A DNA stretch of 46,811 nucleotides from Merismopedia glauca CCAP 1448/3 (GTDB taxonomy: Bacteria > Cyanobacteriota > Cyanobacteriia > Cyanobacteriales > CCAP-1448), in assembly GCF_003003775.1 (NCBI RefSeq), contig NZ_PVWJ01000026.1, positions 1-46,811 of the forward strand, given 5' to 3'. Both the position numbers and the translations under genes were made by a program. Shown piece by piece: positions 15,267 to 24,091 of this stretch (positions are counted from its first letter, which is position 1; every line of letters starts with the position of its first letter). A model generated the notes under the pieces. The model saw nothing but the letters and a program-made list of their open reading frames with translations, was not told the origin of the DNA and did no database searches.

Positions 15267-16244
15267 TTACGGCTTCAAATCTGCCAAAATAGTGTTACTA
15301 ATCTCAGTTAAAGTTTGAGTTACATTACGAGGTTGCCATCCTAATTGAGTTTTAGCTTTAGTGGCATCAACCCGCACGCAACGATCGTAAATGTAGTGTA
15401 CTCTTTCTTTACTAATTGGGGGTTGCCAATTAAATAATCGTCCAATTGGATCTAGAATATTACCTGCTATTCTTAACATAATAGGCGGGATTTCTTTAGG
15501 TACGGGAATCCCTGTTTGAGCAGATAGGAAAGCAAACATTTCTTTTAATGAAAGTTCCCCAGCAGAAATTATATATTTCTCTCCAGATTTACCTTTAATT
15601 GCAGCTAAGATGGCAGCTTCAGCTAGATCGTCTACATGAACTATACCAGTAATGCGATCGCCTCCACCCCATACTGGTAGTTTCCCGCTTAAATATTGCC
15701 GTAACACTGGACCAAAATGCGGATCGTCTGCACCAAAGATTCCTGATGGTAGTAAACTAACTACTGGCAATCCTTCACCTGCTAATTTATCCACAATTTC
15801 TTGCGCTGCAAGTTTAGTAGAATCGTAGGCAGAAGAAAAGTTTTTTTGCTCTCTAATAAAGGTTTCATTGATTACTCTACCTTGAGTATCTCCAAAGATT
15901 CCAATCGTACTAAAATGGACAACTTTTTGCACTCCCAACTGTTTAGATAATTCCATCACATTGCGGGTTCCTTCTACATTTACGAGTTGCATTTTCACCG
16001 CATCAACTAAGCCAATTTCGACATAAGCAGCAGTATGGAACACCCAATCTACACCAGTCATAGCTTCAGTAATCGAAGGGCGATCGCCTAAGTCGCCATA
16101 AACCAGTTTCACGCTACAATTATCTAAGTTGGATAAATTACTAGATTTTCTGACCAATCCCACTACTTCAATCCCTCTTTTTTCTAGTGCTTTCACCAAG
16201 TGAGAACCTGTAAAGCCACTCGCACCAGTTACTAATGCTTTCAT
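15267..16244 (-). CDS. NAD(P)-dependent epimerase/reductase (extended SDR), CerR-like candidate
   Basis: An extended short-chain dehydrogenase of 325 residues. The Rossmann motif TGASGFTGSHL lies at residues 6-16, the cofactor-acid region includes VYGDLGD (49-55), and FHTAA, Ser of FSTIG and the catalytic YxxxK (YDSTK) are all present. It resembles dihydroflavonol-4-reductase-like and HpnA-like enzymes, which reduce ketones or epimerise sugars. It is the last in a minus-strand run with an acyltransferase and an alpha-oxoamine synthase. In bacteria such as Caulobacter an enzyme of this superfamily (CerR) reduces 3-oxo-ceramide, so that role is a plausible inference here. A sugar-nucleotide or hopanoid-linked function is the main alternative. 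Confidence 0.85.
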   Translation of the reverse strand: MKALVTGASGFTGSHLVKALEKRGIEVVGLVRKSSNLSNLDNCSVKLVYGDLGDRPSITEAMTGVDWVFHTAAYVEIGLVDAVKMQLVNVEGTRNVMELSKQLGVQKVVHFSTIGIFGDTQGRVINETFIREQKNFSSAYDSTKLAAQEIVDKLAGEGLPVVSLLPSGIFGADDPHFGPVLRQYLSGKLPVWGGGDRITGIVHVDDLAEAAILAAIKGKSGEKYIISAGELSLKEMFAFLSAQTGIPVPKEIPPIMLRIAGNILDPIGRLFNWQPPISKERVHYIYDRCVRVDATKAKTQLGWQPRNVTQTLTEISNTILADLKP

Positions 16245-16335
16245 AAAGCTTTATTGGTAGATTTGATTAAAATCTGTAGGAAATACAAGAGACTTTTATT
16301 GTCAAATTATGACTTGAGAAACAGTTATGAGTTTT

Positions 16336-16545
16336 CTAACTCATTTTGAGTTTACCTAACTTTTGTTTAATCAAAATTTCCACTTCTTGAATCTCAGCCT
16401 TTGAGTTAGGAATATTGAAAGTTTCTGGAGATGCTTCACCAGTGAAACGATCTACAAAAGCATGAAATGCAGTTTTATTTTCAGGATTAGCGATGATATA
16501 AGCTCTTAACTCACTTTTTGTCATATTATTAAAATCAGGGTTCAT
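16336..16545 (-). CDS. DUF6887-type small protein
   Basis: A 69-residue charged protein, MNPDFNNMTKSELRAYIIAN at its N-terminus, matching the small cyanobacterial DUF6887 pattern (MTK-ELRAY and a helix containing FHAFVDRF). The longer frame begins with a TTG at 16560. I chose the ATG at 16545 because GGAG precedes it at suitable spacing and the conserved part begins here. It lies 32 bp after the DUF6888-type frame, and the two usually occur together in cyanobacteria. Function unknown. The size and tight pairing resemble a toxin-antitoxin module, but there is no evidence for activity. Confidence 0.7.
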   Translation of the reverse strand: MNPDFNNMTKSELRAYIIANPENKTAFHAFVDRFTGEASPETFNIPNSKAEIQEVEILIKQKLGKLKMS

Positions 16546-16577
16546 TACAAGAATCTCCAAAGACCATTGCGATATAT

Positions 16578-16718
16578 TTATATCTCTATGTTATCTCCAG
16601 CCAGAATAAATAGATTACCCGTTCGTTCATCAAGACAGACGACAAAAATAGGGGTAAGGGTATTAGTGAGAGATTGACAGAGAATTACACACCTAATACT
16701 TTGTTCGGCAGTTGGCAA
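16578..16718 (-). CDS. DUF6888-type very small protein (46 codons)
   Basis: A short frame starting at a TTG that follows GAGG at suitable spacing. The product reads LPTAEQSIRCVILCQ at the start and CLDERTGNLFILAGDNIEI at the end, which matches the DUF6888 pattern (PTxEQ-IxC, DERTGN-FILAG). An in-frame stop lies upstream, so a longer form is excluded, and no ATG is available. The C-terminus is shorter than I recall for the family (relatives continue after the IEI), so a mild 3' truncation is possible. It precedes the DUF6887-type gene by 32 bp. Function unknown. Confidence 0.65.
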   Translation of the reverse strand: MPTAEQSIRCVILCQSLTNTLTPIFVVCLDERTGNLFILAGDNIEI

Positions 16719-16775
16719 GATTTGTGTACCTCACGACCATAATTTAAACTTTGATAGAGTTAACCTATAACCACT

Positions 16776-17918
16776 TTATAAAGCTTTTTCATAAATTCTA
16801 TAGGTTTTATAAATTTTACCGCCTGAAGCTGCTATCAGTTTGCGAGAGGGAAAATTATCTTCATATACCCAAGATAATTCGGCTCGTTTGTAGGGTTTAC
16901 CTTTCTCAATTCCGGCTTGTAATCCTAAATAAATTAGGGCTAAAGGAACCATTTTTCTTTTATATTCTGGTAACGAACAAATAGCAATAACTCGCCCTCT
17001 ATCTATTTGCCTTTTATACCATAAAAACTTGAGGATGCCAGGTAAATTTAACTTGCCATTTACGTGTTTTAAGGGAATATTATAATCTGGCAATCCCATA
17101 AAAAATCCTACCATTTCGCCATTATATTCAGCGACAGGAAAGACATCTGGATCGACTAAACCTTGTAAGTCTTTCGCCTCTTCTACAAATTCTTCTTGAG
17201 TGCGTGGGGTAGAACTCCAGTTATCAGCAAAAGCGGTATTAAACAAGTTATACAAACTAATACAATCGGCTTCAAATTCTTTACCTTTGGTTCTCAAAGT
17301 CCGAAAATTAACGCCAGATTTGCAAGCGACTCGATAAGCCTTAGCAAATTCTGGCGGTAAAGGTGTATCTAAAGGGAAGTTATAAGCATATGCATCTTTA
17401 GCTTTTTCCCAACCATATTGTTCCCAAAATTCGGGATAATAAGGAGGGTTATATGGCATCATTACCATTGGTGGTGAATCAAACCCATCTACTAAAAATA
17501 AACAGTTATTGTGGGTAGAAAGATCGATAGGACCGCGAGCAATTTTTAGGTTGTGCGATCGCAACCATTCACTAGCATTATCTAACAAAGATTGAGCTAT
17601 TTCAAAATTGTTAATACACTCAAAATAACCAATTAATCCAAGCTGCTCTTTTTCTTTATCTATCAATCTTTGATTAACCGCCGCTACTACCCTACCCACA
17701 GGTTTGTTATCACTTGAAACTGCAATAAATTGCTGGAACTTACCGTAGGTGAGAAATGTATTTTGATCGGAAAGCTGTTTGGCTATACTACTACGTAAAG
17801 GTGATACCCAGTTAGGATCGTTAGCATAAACTACCTTGGGTACATCCAGAAATAACTCCTGTTGCTGACTAGTTGTAACAGGTAATATTTTAAAAGTATT
17901 GTTGTGAGAAAATGACAT
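16776..17918 (-). CDS. GNAT-fold acyltransferase, bacterial ceramide synthase (bCerS)-like
   Basis: A 380-residue protein of the GNAT-related family often mislabelled dATP pyrophosphohydrolase. Family landmarks are YANDPNWVSPLRSS (about residues 31-44), PVGRVVAAVNQR, a long middle with GPIDLSTHNNCLFLVDGF and PPMVMMPYNPPYYPEFWEQYGW, then GEMVGFFMGLPDYN, and the terminal KTYRIYEKAL. Members in Caulobacter and Porphyromonas are reported to N-acylate 3-ketosphinganine, giving 3-oxo-ceramide. With an alpha-oxoamine synthase upstream and an SDR reductase downstream on the same strand, that reaction is the best guess here. No signal peptide or TM segment is evident, so it probably acts at the cytoplasmic membrane face. 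Another acyl-acceptor is possible. Confidence 0.8.
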   Translation of the reverse strand: MSFSHNNTFKILPVTTSQQQELFLDVPKVVYANDPNWVSPLRSSIAKQLSDQNTFLTYGKFQQFIAVSSDNKPVGRVVAAVNQRLIDKEKEQLGLIGYFECINNFEIAQSLLDNASEWLRSHNLKIARGPIDLSTHNNCLFLVDGFDSPPMVMMPYNPPYYPEFWEQYGWEKAKDAYAYNFPLDTPLPPEFAKAYRVACKSGVNFRTLRTKGKEFEADCISLYNLFNTAFADNWSSTPRTQEEFVEEAKDLQGLVDPDVFPVAEYNGEMVGFFMGLPDYNIPLKHVNGKLNLPGILKFLWYKRQIDRGRVIAICSLPEYKRKMVPLALIYLGLQAGIEKGKPYKRAELSWVYEDNFPSRKLIAASGGKIYKTYRIYEKAL

Positions 17919-17960
17919 TTGTTAATGAGTAAAAAAGGAGGATAGAGATTTGGTAAATCA

Positions 17961-17990
17961 CGAGTAACGAGTAACGAGTAACGAGTAACG
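17961..17990. repeat. Heptanucleotide tandem repeat (CGAGTAA), second locus
   Basis: Four tandem CGAGTAA units upstream of the acyltransferase gene. The same heptamer, in another phase, is at 8551-8577. Its position between two minus-strand genes means it is probably transcribed. Confidence 0.8.
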
Positions 17991-18040
17991 ACTGAAGTAC
18001 ATAGACCACCTCATGTAAATAGACAAATAAATATACAAAT

Positions 18041-18060
18041 AATTTTGCCTACCTACTTAT
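18041..18060. repeat. 20-bp direct repeat, copy 1
   Basis: AATTTTGCCTACCTACTTAT is repeated exactly at 21809-21828, and the sequence just before it (ATACAA, T/A-rich) is also similar. The two copies bracket the coiled-coil, oxoamine synthase and Rieske genes. Confidence 0.6.
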
Positions 18061-18067
18061 AAATATT

Positions 18068-18376
18068 TTAATTTGCTGAGCTTCCATTACCTCTTTGACT
18101 TAATAGATATTCCCAAATTCGGCGAATTTCCTGTTGGGTTTCTCTAATTATCTCTTCATGACGACTCGTTTGCTCTTGATAGCGATTAAACTGTTCTTGA
18201 CTTTGCCGTTGATAAACAGCTAACTCGGCAAACAATTGTAAAACATCATTGATAGATGCTCTTAATTCCCTTATCTCAGCCGCGTTTTGCTCTATAGCTT
18301 GAGAATGGCGATCTATATATCTTGCGGCTGTTTCTAATAGTTTCTCGGTTTGAGTTAACCTTTCTTCTGGTGTCAT
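18068..18376 (-). CDS. Small coiled-coil protein
   Basis: A 102-residue, Gln/Glu/Arg-rich protein, almost wholly heptad-patterned (LTQTEKLLETAARYIDRHS, then AAEIRELRASINDVLQLFAEL and repeated Gln-rich stretches to residue 90). It lacks a signal peptide, TM segment or recognised domain. Similar short coiled-coil proteins are common in cyanobacteria, and some partner with membrane or chemotaxis-like proteins; nothing specific can be claimed here. It lies between the acyltransferase and oxoamine synthase genes on the same strand, but long spacers on both sides argue against a tight operon. Confidence 0.65.
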   Translation of the reverse strand: MTPEERLTQTEKLLETAARYIDRHSQAIEQNAAEIRELRASINDVLQLFAELAVYQRQSQEQFNRYQEQTSRHEEIIRETQQEIRRIWEYLLSQRGNGSSAN

Positions 18377-18497
18377 TTTTCGCTGGTATTAGTGAGTGAA
18401 AAAATTAGATAACGAGCGATCGCATTTTCTCCAAAAGTAACCTAAACCTAAGATAGTTAGGCGATCGCATTATTCTACTATCTGAAAGGTAATATCA

Positions 18498-18701
18498 TTA
18501 TTCTAATGCTGTAGAATCAGGGGGACATTCTGGTGCTTTACCTCCTAATTTACCAAATTGAATTGGCGTTGTTGTCGGTTCATTACTTTCACAAATCGCG
18601 CTACTTAGAACGATTTGCTTTTTTGAATTCACGTACCTAACCGTAGCACCCGCATAGCTTTTGAAACTAGGATATTTTATTTTATAGTGAAATAATACCA
18701 A
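18498..18701 (-). CDS. Possible small hypothetical protein
   Basis: A 67-codon frame beginning with TTG. The C-terminal half (PTTTPIQFGKLGGKAPECPPDST) looks protein-like and is Pro/Gly-rich; the N-terminal half is Tyr/Lys/Ser-rich. There is no strong Shine-Dalgarno sequence and no recognised family. It may be a decayed gene end or a chance frame. Confidence 0.25.
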   Translation of the reverse strand: MVLFHYKIKYPSFKSYAGATVRYVNSKKQIVLSSAICESNEPTTTPIQFGKLGGKAPECPPDSTALE

Positions 18702-18726
18702 ATTAGGATAGATAACACTTCTTTGA

Positions 18727-18781
18727 CCTGGCGACTAAAGTCGCGGCTATACAAACAAAGTCCGCCTACGCGGACTCAAGA
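18727..18781. repeat. Double-palindrome repeat (GCGACT and AGTCCGC arms)
   Basis: GCGACT-AA-AGTCGC is followed by GGCTATACAAACAAAGTC and then AGTCCGC-CTAC-GCGGACT. The same arrangement occurs, with base changes, inside the cobN reading frame at 33535-33637, so this is a dispersed repeat family. It could also end transcripts. Confidence 0.7.
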
Positions 18782-19023
18782 AAAAAGGGGTTTTAAAAGG
18801 AGGTTTGATATAATAAGAGTGATCGCTTTTTTCAACTATTATTCTTAACTAGATTTGTGCTGTTGAATCAAGTTATCAAGTATTTGCTTTTCACCAGCAT
18901 CCATCGACTTAGCGATCGCCAATGGTAAATTAAACCTGACAAAAAACTTGCATAGGGACATAATATGAGTCCCTACAGCTACTCAATTGAGTCAGAGAAT
19001 TAAAGCGCGATCGCTATTCCCGT
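18782..19023. other. Spacer downstream of the oxoamine synthase gene
   Basis: Mostly no recognisable content. On the minus strand, 18845-18961 holds a 38-codon ATG frame (MSLCKFFVRFNLPLAIAKSM and a helical end) that could be a tiny gene or the remnant of one. There is no clear ribosome binding site and I recognise no family. Confidence 0.3.
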
Positions 19024-20304
19024 TCAAGCACTAACGGTAGTTTGATACAATAAATTGCGAGTAGCCACCATCCCATTAACTAAGCTATCCATTTCGGCTT
19101 GAGTATGCAAAGCGTTGGCTGTAATTCGCAAGCGAGGTTTAGCGATAAACCAGATGGGAGATACCCACAATCCTGCATCAGCCATCAGTTTTCTGGCATA
19201 TAATTTTGGGTTAATATCTGGCGGTAACAAAACTGGGATGACGTTGGTTTCGCCTATAGCTTCAAAATCGTTTTCCGCCAAGCGATCGCGTAAATATCTG
19301 GTATTTTCTTGCAATTTCTCTACAATTTCTGGATACTGGCGCACTTGGCGAATGCTTTCTAACGCCGCAGCAGTCATCGGAGGTGGTAAAGAAATGGTTC
19401 CAATCGAGGTGGGGGAAACATCAAGTAAAGGACGAAATTCGGGAATGTGGGTACTAATTGCCGCCCCAGCCGAAGCTGCAAACTTAGAGAAAGTACTCAT
19501 AATTAGAGGAATAACACCCCGTTCAATCGCATAATCTGGCTTAATTCCGAAATGCTCGTAAATACCTCTGCCAGTTGCTCCAATCGCGCCACTAGCATGA
19601 GCTTCATCCATCAGCAACACGCTATTGGGATACTGAGACATAACTTGAATCATTTCTGGGAGAGGAGCAATATCTCCATCCATTGAAAAAACAGCATCAG
19701 AAACCACTAAAATGCGATCGCCAGGATGAGCATAGCGATATAATTTCTTGGCTAAATCCTCCACATCGCAGTGACGGTAAGCCTTGACTCGAACCCTAGG
19801 GCTATTTCCAAACACTTTTCCAGAACGAGTATTAGCATTAACCACTGCGGAAACTATACATCCGTGATTGAGGACATCAGTCAAAATCAAAGTTTCGCGA
19901 GTATGCTGAAATCCAGGTACGGGTATCGCCAAATGACAAAAAGCATCAACTACCGCTTGCATTGCCATCCAGGCGTTCATAAATAGCTGCGTGTGGGGTA
20001 AATGCTTAAACGCCGAAATTTCCGCTTCTAGTTGCCTGTGTAAGTCGATTCTACCACTCAAAACCGAGCAAGAACTATTAGAAGTACCGTATTTCCAAAT
20101 AGCATCTACAGCCGCTTGTTTGACAGCATCTGATTGTACTAAACCCAGCACATCATTACTGCAAAAACTCAGAACAGTTCGGCGCTTACCAGTTACTGCT
20201 TCTTCAATCTCAACTAAATTTCCTCGTTTTTCATGACAAATATATTCGTCAGGATCTAGCCCACTTGCGTACCAGCGCTGAACATACTCTTGAACGACTT
20301 GCAC
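19024..20304 (-). CDS. Alpha-oxoamine synthase (serine palmitoyltransferase-like)
   Basis: A PLP enzyme of the AONS/KBL/ALAS/SPT family, 426 residues, joining an amino acid to an acyl thioester with loss of CO2. Family features are DVLNHGCI with the PLP-stacking His147, SMDGDIAPL (207-215), DEAHASGAIGATGRG (233-247, PLP Asp233 and His236) and TFSK with the Schiff-base Lys274. The loop around residues 108-120 (LFMNAWMAMQAVVD) departs from the usual SGYxAN pattern, and an insertion before DVLNH points away from BioF and Kbl. AGGAG precedes the GTG start. With a bCerS-like acyltransferase and an SDR on the same strand, synthesis of a 3-keto long-chain base is the favoured role. Substrates are unproven. 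The Rieske gene lies upstream. Confidence 0.88.
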   Translation of the reverse strand: MQVVQEYVQRWYASGLDPDEYICHEKRGNLVEIEEAVTGKRRTVLSFCSNDVLGLVQSDAVKQAAVDAIWKYGTSNSSCSVLSGRIDLHRQLEAEISAFKHLPHTQLFMNAWMAMQAVVDAFCHLAIPVPGFQHTRETLILTDVLNHGCIVSAVVNANTRSGKVFGNSPRVRVKAYRHCDVEDLAKKLYRYAHPGDRILVVSDAVFSMDGDIAPLPEMIQVMSQYPNSVLLMDEAHASGAIGATGRGIYEHFGIKPDYAIERGVIPLIMSTFSKFAASAGAAISTHIPEFRPLLDVSPTSIGTISLPPPMTAAALESIRQVRQYPEIVEKLQENTRYLRDRLAENDFEAIGETNVIPVLLPPDINPKLYARKLMADAGLWVSPIWFIAKPRLRITANALHTQAEMDSLVNGMVATRNLLYQTTVSA

Positions 20305-20539
20305 AGAATTTTCTCCTCTTACCTTAACCCAGACGAACTATTCCTTTTGGTTTCTCAGTATATTTTTTTATGTTAGCGATCGACACCTGCTCTCTTCACA
20401 AGAGGGTAGCTTACATTGAGCCAAGTAGTCTAATTACAAATATCTAAAATCGAATTTCAGTAACATCTGCAAGACTCCCCTAACTTCTGTAGAGACGTAG
20501 CCGTGTTACTTCTGACTAGCCCCTGCGGGGCGGCTTCGC

Positions 20540-21601
20540 CTACTGACTTCTGACTTCTGACTTCTGACTTCTGTCATATTGTTTCACTAATAATCTTTGT
20601 AAGGCAATAATCGCCGGATTGATTTCCACATAACGTCTAGTTGGATTAGCTAAATAAGTTCGCTGTTCGCTTTCAATCATTTCAATATCTTGGGCGAGAA
20701 ACTTACGGAGAACAAATCTTTCTAGTATAAAGGCTAACCAATGTTTGATGCGTTTAAGTAGCCATGCAGGTAAATTAACTTTGAAAAAAAATAAGGCAAA
20801 GGAACGACTCTCAACTTCTCCTACAGGTAAGCGCATCAGGTAAAGAGAAGAAACACCCTGGAGAGAAGTAGAGTAATTGGGATATTGGTATTGTATAGAG
20901 ATAGGTAAAGTCGTGGTAGCATCAGCGCGATCGCTTAACCCCAAAAACTTTGCCATTCTCCCTTTATAAGACACTAAATACTCAGCACACACTGAGTTTT
21001 CTGTTTCCTTTAAGCTACTCAAAACCGGATCGAACCACCCTTGTAACCCCCGATGTAAAAACCCGTGAAATACATCCATCGTATTCTCGTTACAGATGGA
21101 AAAATGAGCTTGGAAATGGGCAGCAAGGGGCACCATTAACCATTCTGGGCTATCAAATTCGGCTATTTCGGGAATCGAAGCTGTGAGGGTTAAACTAGGA
21201 TCGCCAGGAAATAACCAAACAATGCCATACTTTTCTTGAACTGGGTAAGTACGGGCTTTAGCGTGAGGTAATTTCTGGTTTTTGGGGAGATAGGGAATAT
21301 TAACGCAATTTCCCATCTCATCAAACTCCCAACCGTGATAAGGACAAGCTAAATGACAACCTTGTACCTGTCCTTTATGTAAGGCTACCCCTTTATGGGG
21401 ACAAGCATCTTCAAAGGCGTGTAATTTGCCCTCCACGTCTCGGAAAACAGCTATAGCCATCTTCCAAATGACTACAGACATAATTTGCTCAGGTTTGACT
21501 TGGTGCGCCCAACCCACTGCGTACCAGTAGTTAGGATTGATACCTACCTCGCGGACTTGATTTTGGACTGTTTGTCCTGTAAGAGTTGTTGCTAGTTCCA
21601 T
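20540..21601 (-). CDS. Rieske [2Fe-2S] non-heme iron oxygenase
   Basis: A 353-residue oxygenase alpha subunit. Using numbering from a TTG one codon earlier, the Rieske ligands are C68, H70, C87 and H90 (CPHKG, CPYHGW). The mononuclear iron site shows D177, H180 and H184 (MDVFHGFLH). It belongs near the VanA/PaO-like single-component oxygenases that hydroxylate or demethylate hydrophobic substrates, and it needs a separate reductase, not seen here. A hydrophobic segment near residues 275-300 (LPAWLLKRIKHWLAFIL) may contact membrane. The ATG at 21601 is preferred to the TTG before it. The last ten residues (RSQKSEVRSQ) derive from heptamer repeats. It lies upstream of the oxoamine synthase and could modify the same lipid; the substrate is unknown. 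Confidence 0.88.
   Translation of the reverse strand: MELATTLTGQTVQNQVREVGINPNYWYAVGWAHQVKPEQIMSVVIWKMAIAVFRDVEGKLHAFEDACPHKGVALHKGQVQGCHLACPYHGWEFDEMGNCVNIPYLPKNQKLPHAKARTYPVQEKYGIVWLFPGDPSLTLTASIPEIAEFDSPEWLMVPLAAHFQAHFSICNENTMDVFHGFLHRGLQGWFDPVLSSLKETENSVCAEYLVSYKGRMAKFLGLSDRADATTTLPISIQYQYPNYSTSLQGVSSLYLMRLPVGEVESRSFALFFFKVNLPAWLLKRIKHWLAFILERFVLRKFLAQDIEMIESEQRTYLANPTRRYVEINPAIIALQRLLVKQYDRSQKSEVRSQ
20541..20576. repeat. Heptanucleotide tandem repeat (TGACTTC) inside a gene 3' end
   Basis: Four TGACTTC units in tandem, with a further unit-like TTCTGACT at 20510. On the minus strand they read as the last codons of the Rieske protein (RSQKSEVRSQ), so the repeat has displaced or extended the original C-terminus. 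Confidence 0.85.
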
Positions 21602-21950: not shown

Positions 21951-23150
21951 ATGCATCTCAAAAACTACTCACCAGATCGGCAAACATCAAAAACCCCTAT
22001 GTGGCGCAATCCCCAGCTTTTAATTTTGTTGGCGGCTGGATCTATGACAACTATGGCGGGGGGATTAGTCGCACCTATACTGCCAGATATTGTGAAGGAA
22101 CTGAAGCTAGATACAGGTTGGGCAGGAATGTTAGTTAGTATGCATTGCCTGACTATTGCTTTATTTAGCGCTCCTTTGGGAATTTTGGCAGATCGAGTTG
22201 GCAGAATTCGGATTTTGATTCCCTGTTTGCTGCTGTATGCCCTCGTTGGGGTTGCAGGTGCCTTTGCGACTAATTTTTGGGGATTACTACTGACACGGGC
22301 GTTATTGGGGGCTGTCAGTGGCGGAATTGCGGCGGCTAGCTTAGGTTTATTGGGCAGTATGTATGAGGGGAAAAAGCGATCGCAAGCCCTAGGGCTTGCG
22401 ACTAGTACCCTGACGATTACTGGAATTACCGATCCGCTATTGGGGGGTTGGGTAGGAGATAGCAACTGGCGTTACAGTTTTTACTTATATGCTTTGGCTG
22501 TACCGATCGCTTTTTTAGTAGCTGCGATTTTTAAACATGAATCACCTCTACAAGCTAAAGCCATAAAAGATAACCCCACTAAATCTCTGAGGAAGGTATT
22601 AACTCAACCAGGGGCGCTCAGAGTCTTACTAGCGTTAAGTCTCACTTCAGTAGCCATGTATGCAGTGGTGATTTACGCCCCACTTTACCTGAAAAAAGCG
22701 ATCGCGGCTGATTCTCTCCTCAATGGGATAGTTTTAGCTTCTAGAGCGATCGGTGCTTCGGTAATATCGGCTTTTGGTGCAAGTAAGTTAACCCAACTCA
22801 TTGGTATACAACCGACGATTGCTTTAGGATTCGCCTTGATGGCAGCTACTTTAGCTACTATCCCCTTATTACACCAAATAGAGTTGATTTTAGTCGCTTC
22901 TATTATTTTTGGGGTGGGATTTGGGATTGTTTTACCCAGTTTGTACAATGCTTTAGCTAACTTTTCCCCTCCTGAATTGCGATCGAGTGTCTTAGCCATC
23001 GGTACGGGTGTCGGCTTTTTAGGACAATTTATGTCTCCAGTTCTCCTAGGTCCTGTAATTTACTACAGTAGTCTAGAAAATGTTTTTTATGCGGCGGCGA
23101 TCGTCGCCCTATTAACTGGCGTTTTATTATTTGTTCCGCAACGTCGATAA
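21951..23150 (+). CDS. Major facilitator superfamily transporter
   Basis: A 399-residue polytopic membrane protein with about 12 TM helices in two halves joined by a central loop (near residues 200-215). Motif A is recognisable as GILADRVGRIRIL (about residues 77-89), and a weaker copy occurs in the second half. It resembles the drug:H+ antiporter-1/sugar-efflux type (MFS_1). Substrate cannot be predicted. The ATG at 21951 gives a 16-residue polar leader before the first helix; the Met at residue 17 (MWRNPQ) is an alternative start. It is divergent from the Rieske gene, so an export role for that cluster's product is conceivable but unproven. Convergent with the cupin gene. Confidence 0.88.
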   Translation: MHLKNYSPDRQTSKTPMWRNPQLLILLAAGSMTTMAGGLVAPILPDIVKELKLDTGWAGMLVSMHCLTIALFSAPLGILADRVGRIRILIPCLLLYALVGVAGAFATNFWGLLLTRALLGAVSGGIAAASLGLLGSMYEGKKRSQALGLATSTLTITGITDPLLGGWVGDSNWRYSFYLYALAVPIAFLVAAIFKHESPLQAKAIKDNPTKSLRKVLTQPGALRVLLALSLTSVAMYAVVIYAPLYLKKAIAADSLLNGIVLASRAIGASVISAFGASKLTQLIGIQPTIALGFALMAATLATIPLLHQIELILVASIIFGVGFGIVLPSLYNALANFSPPELRSSVLAIGTGVGFLGQFMSPVLLGPVIYYSSLENVFYAAAIVALLTGVLLFVPQRR

Positions 23151-23173: not shown

Positions 23174-24091
23174 CTAAAACATTTGCCGAATTTGTTGGAT
23201 TTTTTGAGTTCTATTAGGACTAAAAAGTGCGATCGCCAAACTCAATAATATTGATGGCATGGCTAACAAAAAACCTAAATATGTCCGCCATCTAGCCCAG
23301 GAAAAGATCGCTCGTGAAGTGGGATAAACGCGCCAAAATCGATTCACAGAACAGACCATTTCATCACCTAAAGCTGTGACTTCGTGCCACCAACCTGCTG
23401 GAATATAAAGGATTTCTCCTCTATTTAAAGTAACTTCATATTTATAATTTAAGGCTTTTTTAAAATTGGGAAAATCTCGAAAATTAGGGTTTTCTGGATA
23501 GGCTTGACTGAACCAAGAACGGGTTTTTAAACCATTTTTTAAGTGCCGCCAAATGGGGAAAGGATATAAGTTATTTAGCTGATTTGGTGGAAATAAAACT
23601 ATTTTTTTCGAGCCGTGCAATTGCATCAAAGTCCCATCTAGCGTATCGTAGTGCAAAGATTCCATATGTCCGCCAGGGCCAATCCAAATATTGAAATCGC
23701 TGACAGGATGTTTTAAACTTAAGCGATCGCCAATATTTGCTAAATAATCTAAATTTCCTAAAGGTGTGTGTTTCAGAGAACATTTAGCTAGATAAATGTC
23801 TTCTTCATGGGCTTGATGACTTTTTAAGAGTTCCGCATATTCATTAAATGGTAACAGTTTAGTAGTCACTCCACTGCCAATACTTTCCCAATTTCGCTTA
23901 TCATGTTGGTATCTGTCTTTACCATAAAAACGCAGGAGAAATTCTTGGTTTCCCAACTGTTGAACTAAATAGTTTAAATCCCAGTCATATCCTGTCAGTA
24001 ATCCTGGAATTACAACAGGTTTACCTTGCTTTTTAAATCGGTTAAATATTTCTGGGTTGATAGATAATGTGTTGAGTATATCTATTTCCAT
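23174..24091 (-). CDS. JmjC/Cupin_8-type 2-oxoglutarate Fe(II) dioxygenase with C-terminal TM
   Basis: A 305-residue protein with the FIH-like cupin fold: the GKPVVIPG N-terminal motif (23-30), the iron-binding HYD (H147, D149), the strand pair GTLMQLHGSKKIVLFPP, and the distal His236 in LYIPAGWWHEV. It should hydroxylate an unknown protein or small molecule using O2 and 2-oxoglutarate. Uncommonly, the C-terminus has a hydrophobic segment (FLLAMPSILLSLAIALF, about 275-291), suggesting membrane anchoring. It stands alone, convergent with the MFS transporter. Confidence 0.85.
   Translation of the reverse strand: MEIDILNTLSINPEIFNRFKKQGKPVVIPGLLTGYDWDLNYLVQQLGNQEFLLRFYGKDRYQHDKRNWESIGSGVTTKLLPFNEYAELLKSHQAHEEDIYLAKCSLKHTPLGNLDYLANIGDRLSLKHPVSDFNIWIGPGGHMESLHYDTLDGTLMQLHGSKKIVLFPPNQLNNLYPFPIWRHLKNGLKTRSWFSQAYPENPNFRDFPNFKKALNYKYEVTLNRGEILYIPAGWWHEVTALGDEMVCSVNRFWRVYPTSRAIFSWARWRTYLGFLLAMPSILLSLAIALFSPNRTQKIQQIRQMF

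Follow-up and report, generated by a model that had tools for sequence, protein, structure and literature searches.

We analyzed a 46,811-nucleotide stretch of the genome of the cyanobacterium Merismopedia glauca CCAP 1448/3 (contig NZ_PVWJ01000026.1, or C26, of the 5.2-Mb genome; this whole stretch is called the window). Genes for an extended short-chain dehydrogenase/reductase (SDR), a tandem-GNAT N-acyltransferase, an alpha-oxoamine synthase (AOS), and a Rieske oxygenase lie there on one strand, with a gene for a major facilitator superfamily (MFS) transporter divergent from them (Table 1). A sequence-only reading had proposed a ceramide- or sphingolipid-like biosynthesis locus, and the gene positions, strand, and types that it gave agree with our open reading frame (ORF) calls and Pfam matches. 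The Rieske ORF runs to 21604 if TTG opens it; the next codon is the ATG at 21601. In a scan with NCBIfam, none of the pathway proteins scored over a model cutoff, and the GNAT matched no model.

Table 1. Genes of the putative lipid locus in the window
Feature	Position	Strand	Details
SDR (extended), proposed ketone reductase	15267-16244	-	325 aa; Pfam Epimerase
Tandem-GNAT N-acyltransferase, bacterial ceramide synthase homologue	16776-17918	-	380 aa; Pfam Acetyltransf_1, weak, 24.6 bits
AOS, proposed first step, separate class	19024-20304	-	426 aa; Pfam Aminotran_1_2
Rieske oxygenase, proposed optional hydroxylase of the pathway	20540-21601	-	Pfam Rieske and VanA_C
MFS transporter and possible exporter, transcribed away from the Rieske gene	21951-23150	+	Pfam MFS_1

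Co-occurrence and gene order across cyanobacteria

Co-occurrence was evaluated in 291 cyanobacterial genomes, including that of the window, and AOS was scored as absent when no match was found at an E value of ≤1e-100. AOS orthologues were present in 22 genomes, representing 14 family codes and 17 genera, and showed 71 to 80% identity among the 21 other carriers. GNAT orthologues (at least 56% identity) were detected in all 22 AOS genomes and in one additional genome (G290), and SDR orthologues were detected in exactly the same 23 genomes. The Fisher test, which ignores kinship, gave a P value of 3.6e-32 for AOS with GNAT and likewise for AOS with SDR. Because of this co-occurrence and these tests, the gene set cannot be attributed to chance, and the functional link among the three genes, for which the sequence-only reading had suggested a co-occurrence check, was borne out: AOS, GNAT, and SDR were found together in every AOS genome. 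We are close to certain that they belong to one pathway, including in those carriers where they are unlinked and lie far apart on one chromosome (e.g., G011 and G280). A Rieske orthologue was found in 15 of the 22 AOS genomes and in G290 and was absent from the other 7.

When named genomes were searched with the GNAT, 64 loci were found: 4 in Alphaproteobacteria, 1 in Chloroflexi, and the other 59 in cyanobacteria, these last at 58 to 85% identity. A cyanobacterial origin fits this distribution. In the DNA of these 59 loci, ORFs were seen for GNAT (55), SDR (34), AOS (27), and Rieske (20); such neighbor counts are lower bounds, many contigs being short. GNAT and SDR were codirectional in all 33 pairs, with a 4-base overlap in 14, AOS and GNAT were codirectional in 23 of 25 pairs, and Rieske and AOS were codirectional in 20 of 20 loci.

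Homology of the GNAT to bacterial ceramide synthases

Proteobacterial sphingolipid clusters served as stand-in queries (loci L060, L063, L070 [Sphingomonas parapaucimobilis], L080, and L089) in place of the proteins of Caulobacter itself. The window GNAT shared 27 to 33% identity with the GNATs of four such clusters over 98 to 99% of the query lengths, with E values of 2e-59, 2e-58, 2e-52, and 9e-41. These values lie within the published cutoff for bacterial ceramide synthase (bCerS; E ≤ 1e-30, coverage ≥ 50%; PMC11334938). The label CerS for L080 and L089 rests on neighbors such as LptF/LptG, with no serine palmitoyltransferase (SPT) in the DNA fetched there; the GNAT is also homologous to those of L070 and L060, the clusters whose AOS passes an SPT cutoff. 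The alphaproteobacterial GNAT loci L060 and L063 are clusters with SDR, AOS, LptF/LptG-type, and other genes (in L060, Pfam DAGK_cat, DUF2141, LptF_LptG twice, and MatE) and resemble the Caulobacter sphingolipid region described in PMC11324152.

The landmarks ANDPNW and TYRIYEKAL named in the sequence-only reading are present, and KTYR near the C terminus is identical in 23 aligned relatives, including three GNATs from alphaproteobacterial loci with an AOS. The structural model (pLDDT 88) has a tandem GNAT fold and matches MAB_4324 (Z 23.9), a glucosamine N-acetyltransferase (22.8), mycothiol synthase (21.0), and N-myristoyltransferases (about 15). When the GNAT alone was compared by sequence with solved structures, no relative was found at an E value below 2. 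In the tree, the cyanobacterial GNATs form their own clade (100/100). In E. coli, YghO and some unannotated stretches (H84, H85, and H88) are homologous to the GNAT, with about 27% identity over nearly its whole length.

Neighboring and recurring companion genes

A census of neighboring ORFs of ≥90 aa in the cyanobacterial loci revealed recurring fatty acid hydroxylase (PF04116; 12 loci), GH3-family (7 loci), and Mpo1-like (PF06127; 7 loci) genes, as well as an ABC ATPase (10 loci) with an FtsX/MacB permease (7 loci) and a B12-binding radical SAM protein (4 loci). Fatty acid hydroxylases have a role in eukaryotic sphingolipids. Orthologues of the cyanobacterial hydroxylase (at least 64% identity) were present in 20 of the 22 AOS genomes, and distant ones (50 to 60%) occurred in 6 genomes without AOS. 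At 1e-80, GH3 matches among the 291 genomes were confined to G290 and 16 of the 22 AOS genomes. The Mpo1-like gene, examined in 43 of the 291 genomes (the 22 with AOS, G290, and 20 without AOS, all of the window's order), was detected in 15 of the 22 AOS genomes, in none of the 20, and not in G290. Its designation as a 2-hydroxy-fatty-acid enzyme is taken from the Pfam title.

The order fatty acid hydroxylase, Mpo1-like gene, amidohydrolase was seen in all 11 fetched loci (L124 to L134), which represent 11 of the 15 Mpo1 genomes, and also in L121, L049, and L050; it is this position beside the Mpo1-like gene that ties the amidohydrolase to the set. In M. glauca, the hydroxylase and GH3 genes are a divergent pair on contig C105, and the Mpo1-like and amidohydrolase genes lie together on C3. 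In Aliterella atlantica CENA595 (L031), about 12.4 kb holds the amidohydrolase, Mpo1-like, hydroxylase, GH3, MFS, Rieske, AOS, GNAT, and SDR genes and the ABC pair.

Sterol-desaturase-type genes beside the GNAT or AOS in Roseomonas and Acidisoma were considered as counterparts of the cyanobacterial hydroxylase and set aside as an analogy at most because their similarity to it is marginal. The B12-binding radical SAM protein, which carries DUF4070, adjoins amidohydrolase, Mpo1-like, or fatty acid hydroxylase genes (L050:2261-3892, L049:8393-9967, L124, and L126) and may modify a lipid chain.

Between the AOS and GNAT genes lies an ORF of 102 aa (18068-18376, minus strand) without a Pfam match, for which the available DNA of the 64 GNAT loci gave no match at 1e-5. 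Beyond the MFS gene, the window encodes a Cupin_8/JmjC-type protein (23174-24091, minus strand); a 66% relative adjoins the Rieske gene in Nostoc sp. FACHB-152 (L016:14002-14862), 1 of the 64 loci.

Proposed pathway

We consider it probable that some cyanobacteria make a ceramide-type N-acyl amino-alcohol lipid and that the locus encodes the core of the pathway, with a synthase class of its own and a hydroxylation and turnover module. The identities of the parts, their conserved order, and their co-occurrence are observations; the steps are proposed from enzyme types and by analogy. The AOS would condense an amino acid with a long-chain acyl thioester into a 3-keto amine, the tandem GNAT would N-acylate this amine with a second chain, and the SDR would reduce the ketone to give an amino-alcohol amide. 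Acylation is placed ahead of reduction by comparison with Caulobacter, in which a cerR mutant indicated that acylation appears to precede reduction (PMC11087976). The Rieske oxygenase and the fatty acid hydroxylase encoded elsewhere in the genome would add hydroxyl groups. Turnover would fall to the amidohydrolase and the Mpo1-like protein, which would break down the amide lipid and shorten 2-hydroxy fatty acids; free acids would be activated by the GH3 enzyme. For a fuller version, in which an AOS class recruited independently of known SPTs makes a ceramide-like membrane lipid together with a CerS-family GNAT and a module of Rieske, fatty acid hydroxylase, Mpo1-like, amidohydrolase, and GH3 proteins, we see the balance as even.

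Several results weigh against this proposal. The window AOS scored 172 with SPT_CFB (cutoff, 640), 159 with SPT_BetaP (cutoff, 500), and 125 with SPT_AlphaP (cutoff, 670). The AOS has no PPATPxG loop, and it reads CSVLSGR where other AOSs have the SR...GT motif. In a 27-row tree, a 100/100 branch unites 11 SPT and SPT-like rows and leaves the cyanobacterial AOSs outside, and the approximately unbiased (AU) test rejected a grouping with five proteobacterial SPT rows (P = 0.015); of the five rows so called, only L070 and L060 were scanned with SPT models, and both were over the cutoff. The SDR matched two CerR-position SDRs at 8e-11 and 3e-6 and, at best, a Streptomyces cluster SDR at 4e-17, short of the CerR cutoff (E ≤ 1e-30). 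G290 (L108 and L109) has GNAT, SDR, Rieske, and GH3 orthologues without an AOS detected at 1e-100, and no AOS lies beside its Rieske or GNAT genes; either loss or an assembly gap would account for the absence. CerS-like GNATs of 25 to 31% identity occur in 7 of the 291 genomes without AOS, and thus the wider CerS-like GNAT family is not tied to AOS; no AOS was found in the DNA fetched around the GNATs of 27 to 31% in L110 (G272), L111 (G021), L112 (G029), and L113 (G007). The links of the hydroxylases and the Mpo1-like and GH3 proteins to the pathway follow from family names, and no lipid data were found for the carrier strains.

Class of the AOS

The best NCBIfam model of the window AOS was bioF (233; cutoff, 426), and the positive controls scored over their SPT cutoffs (L070 AOS, 833 with SPT_AlphaP; L060 AOS, 604 with SPT_BetaP). 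The motif TFSK lies at residues 271 to 274, so that Lys274 stands within it, as the sequence-only reading had noted; TFSK is common to the compared SPTs and SPT-like AOSs and is not found in the compared BioF, Kbl, and HemA, which lends weak support to an SPT type. His147, Asp233, His236, Lys274, and Arg393, which we take to be pyridoxal phosphate (PLP)-binding or catalytic residues of the AOS family, are invariant in alignment A2, proteobacterial AOSs included. The protein carries two inserts (about 11 and 12 residues). In trees of 41 and 27 rows, the cyanobacterial AOS clade sits on a stem of 2.8 to 3.0 changes per column.

Phylogeny did not assign a class: the 41-row tree places this clade on the SPT side (60/71), and the best 27-row tree places it beside HemA (88/75), with a long-branch warning. 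The AU test also rejected a grouping with the proteobacterial SPTs and four SPT-like AOSs of other phyla, Bacteroidales excluded (P = 0.020), and did not reject the widest SPT grouping, which includes Bacteroidales AOSs (P = 0.15). A grouping with BioF or with Kbl, a placement that the sequence-only reading had said would count against its proposal, was likewise not rejected (P = 0.086 and 0.19, respectively).

Among solved structures, the best sequence match was Sphingobacterium SPT (1.3e-38). The structural model matched SPT 3a2b (Z 44.1), Kbl 1fc4 (43.4), and ThaOS (43.3); these are tied, and structural matching was dropped as a guide to class. A profile search of solved structures ranked SPT first but was biased and not used, because alignment A2 includes three proteobacterial AOS rows (L060, L063, and L058). 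A phage search with the AOS returned 19 records, all with <60% identity; among the 10 listed, those annotated were BioF.

The AOS had been called SPT type, and this call is not supported, as all NCBIfam SPT cutoffs were missed, the AOS lies apart from the 100/100 branch, and two SPT groupings were rejected. As judged from sequence comparisons, the window AOS is a separate AOS class and not a standard SPT, and serine is therefore only one possible substrate. It is nonetheless possible, if somewhat doubtful, that the AOS is a functional SPT and that a true dihydroceramide derived from serine is made, which would be a special case of the proposed pathway. The TFSK motif and PLP residues are as in SPTs, SPT is both the closest solved structure by sequence and the top structural match (though tied with Kbl), the partner GNAT is CerS-like, and two cyanobacteria are reported to contain ceramides whose bases are C18 and C17 (PMC8895605). 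Against this stand SPT scores of 125 to 172 where 500 to 670 are required, with bioF scoring higher, the rejected clade with proteobacterial SPTs, the remodeled acyl-side motif, and the missing loop.

The SDR and two further alternatives

The SDR contains GASGFTG (residues 7 to 13) and YDSTK (residues 140 to 144), in keeping with the extended SDR with YxxxK described earlier. It shares about 24 to 25% identity with the CerR-position SDRs and 29 to 30% with the Streptomyces cluster SDR. In the reverse direction, the SDR of a Rubrobacter cluster found the window SDR as its first match in the M. glauca genome (8.5e-17; next, 2e-9). The claim that the locus unites the three enzyme types of bacterial ceramide synthesis thus stands for the GNAT, a full-length homologue of sphingolipid-cluster GNATs, but not for the AOS as a standard SPT, and the SDR is only distantly CerR-like. 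The profile and structure checks that had been suggested went the same way: the GNAT reached the bCerS cutoff with the stand-in queries, whereas the AOS fell under the SPT models with its structure tied between SPT and Kbl, and the SDR fell under the CerR cutoff.

The best NCBIfam models of the SDR were HpnA (203; cutoff, 367.65) and SdmB (158; cutoff, 600), and that of the Rieske protein was SdmA (240 bits; cutoff, 600). The two proteins might thus serve hopanoid or sterol-like chemistry, the AOS and GNAT neighborhood being secondary, and the recurrence of the DUF4070 radical SAM protein near some clusters would suit such a role. We regard this as very improbable: all three scores are under their cutoffs, the SDR occurs wherever AOS and GNAT do while the Rieske gene is missing from seven AOS genomes, and HpnA is also the best model for the SDRs of sphingolipid-type clusters in Sphingomonas, Rubrobacter, and Streptomyces.

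The AOS, GNAT, and SDR might instead make an N-acylated amino-ketone or amino-alcohol natural product, secreted through the MFS protein, and not a membrane lipid. The patchy distribution (22 of 291 genomes), the MFS gene, found in the same divergent arrangement at 12 of the 59 named cyanobacterial loci, and the condensation-domain gene adjoining the Streptomyces set are consistent with such a product, which we nevertheless consider unlikely given the high conservation of the AOS and the several lipid-type companions.

Comparison with known systems

The proposed ceramide-type pathway resembles that of Caulobacter (CC_1162 spt, CC_1154 cerS, and CC_1164 cerR) in uniting an AOS, a CerS-family GNAT, and an HpnA-type SDR, and it resembles the proteobacterial pathway in its lipid-export and lipid-modifying neighbors. 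It differs in that the cyanobacterial AOS falls outside the SPT clade, the SDR is only remotely similar to the CerR-position SDRs tested, and the set has Rieske, fatty acid hydroxylase, Mpo1-like, amidohydrolase, and GH3 companions. The proteobacterial form also includes a dedicated acyl carrier protein (ACP) and an acyl-ACP synthetase; an ACP would fall below the 90-aa limit of our neighbor census. The same three gene types, in the same order, form compact operons on plasmids of the Actinomycetota Rubrobacter (L071:8231-11598) and Streptomyces (L073:7026-11552), the latter running on into the condensation-domain gene. Nonomuraea (L081) has an AOS-like sequence, in two pieces, beside the GNAT, and Aureispira has a GNAT and an AOS with a divergent SDR. 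The AOSs of Rubrobacter, Streptomyces, and Aureispira belong to the clade that unites SPT and Bacteroidales AOSs; the Actinomycetota AOSs do so at 100/100, and the cyanobacterial AOSs do not. An AOS gene also lies beside a TetR-type regulator on a Bacteroides ovatus conjugative plasmid (L078:3923-5158), and similar AOS matches were found on plasmids of several Bacteroides species.

Npun_R3567 of Nostoc punctiforme was once considered a possible SPT. According to the available text of PMC8895605, that strain has no other AOS, and Npun_R3567 yielded no ketosphinganine and clusters with the BioF proteins of cyanobacteria. The M. glauca genome, in contrast, has a second AOS on contig C44 (31% identity to the window AOS), which is taken to be BioF, and a 22-bit match on C89. 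The GH3 companion recalls OlsH of planctomycete ornithine lipids, a bacterial GH3 enzyme that makes N-acyl ornithine, the amide of these lipids (PMC12493201); this is a likeness at the family level, drawn from the description of OlsH.

The survey in PMC11334938 used cutoffs of E ≤ 1e-70 for Spt and 1e-30 for bCerS and CerR. At these values only the GNAT would be detectable, because the E values obtained with the stand-in queries were 2e-59 for the GNAT, 8e-11 for the SDR (4e-17 with the Streptomyces cluster SDR), and, for the AOS, 1e-31 with SPTs and 3e-43 with the Rubrobacter AOS. The main text of that paper has "cyanobacteria" once, in the reference list, and does not have "cyanobacteriota." Our search of titles and abstracts found no account of this gene set; an earlier cyanobacterial mention in 10.1038/s41589-021-00948-7, the principal account of CerS evolution, cannot be excluded.

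Implications for cyanobacterial lipid biology

The earlier remark that sphingolipids are not usually ascribed to cyanobacteria is right in general, Nostoc punctiforme with its single AOS having none in the available text of PMC8895605, but not throughout, since the same paper cites ceramides from Scytonema julianum and Moorea producens (C18 and C17 bases); the structure of mooreaside A is given in PMC6272925. So far, the record of cyanobacterial sphingolipids consists of two isolated structure reports, neither of them with genes, and the sole genetic study, as far as PMC8895605 was available, was negative. The gene set described here points to culturable strains for a direct test, among them the carriers A. 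atlantica CENA595, Calothrix sp. NIES-4105, and Baaleninema simplex PCC 7105, and predicts which cyanobacteria should have or lack the lipid. It further suggests that an enzyme from outside the SPT clade can carry out the first step toward ceramide-type lipids. If the proposal is true, the pathway would escape surveys that take SPT homology at the published cutoff as their entry point, and these cyanobacteria would possess an overlooked bacterial relative of our own membrane sphingolipids.

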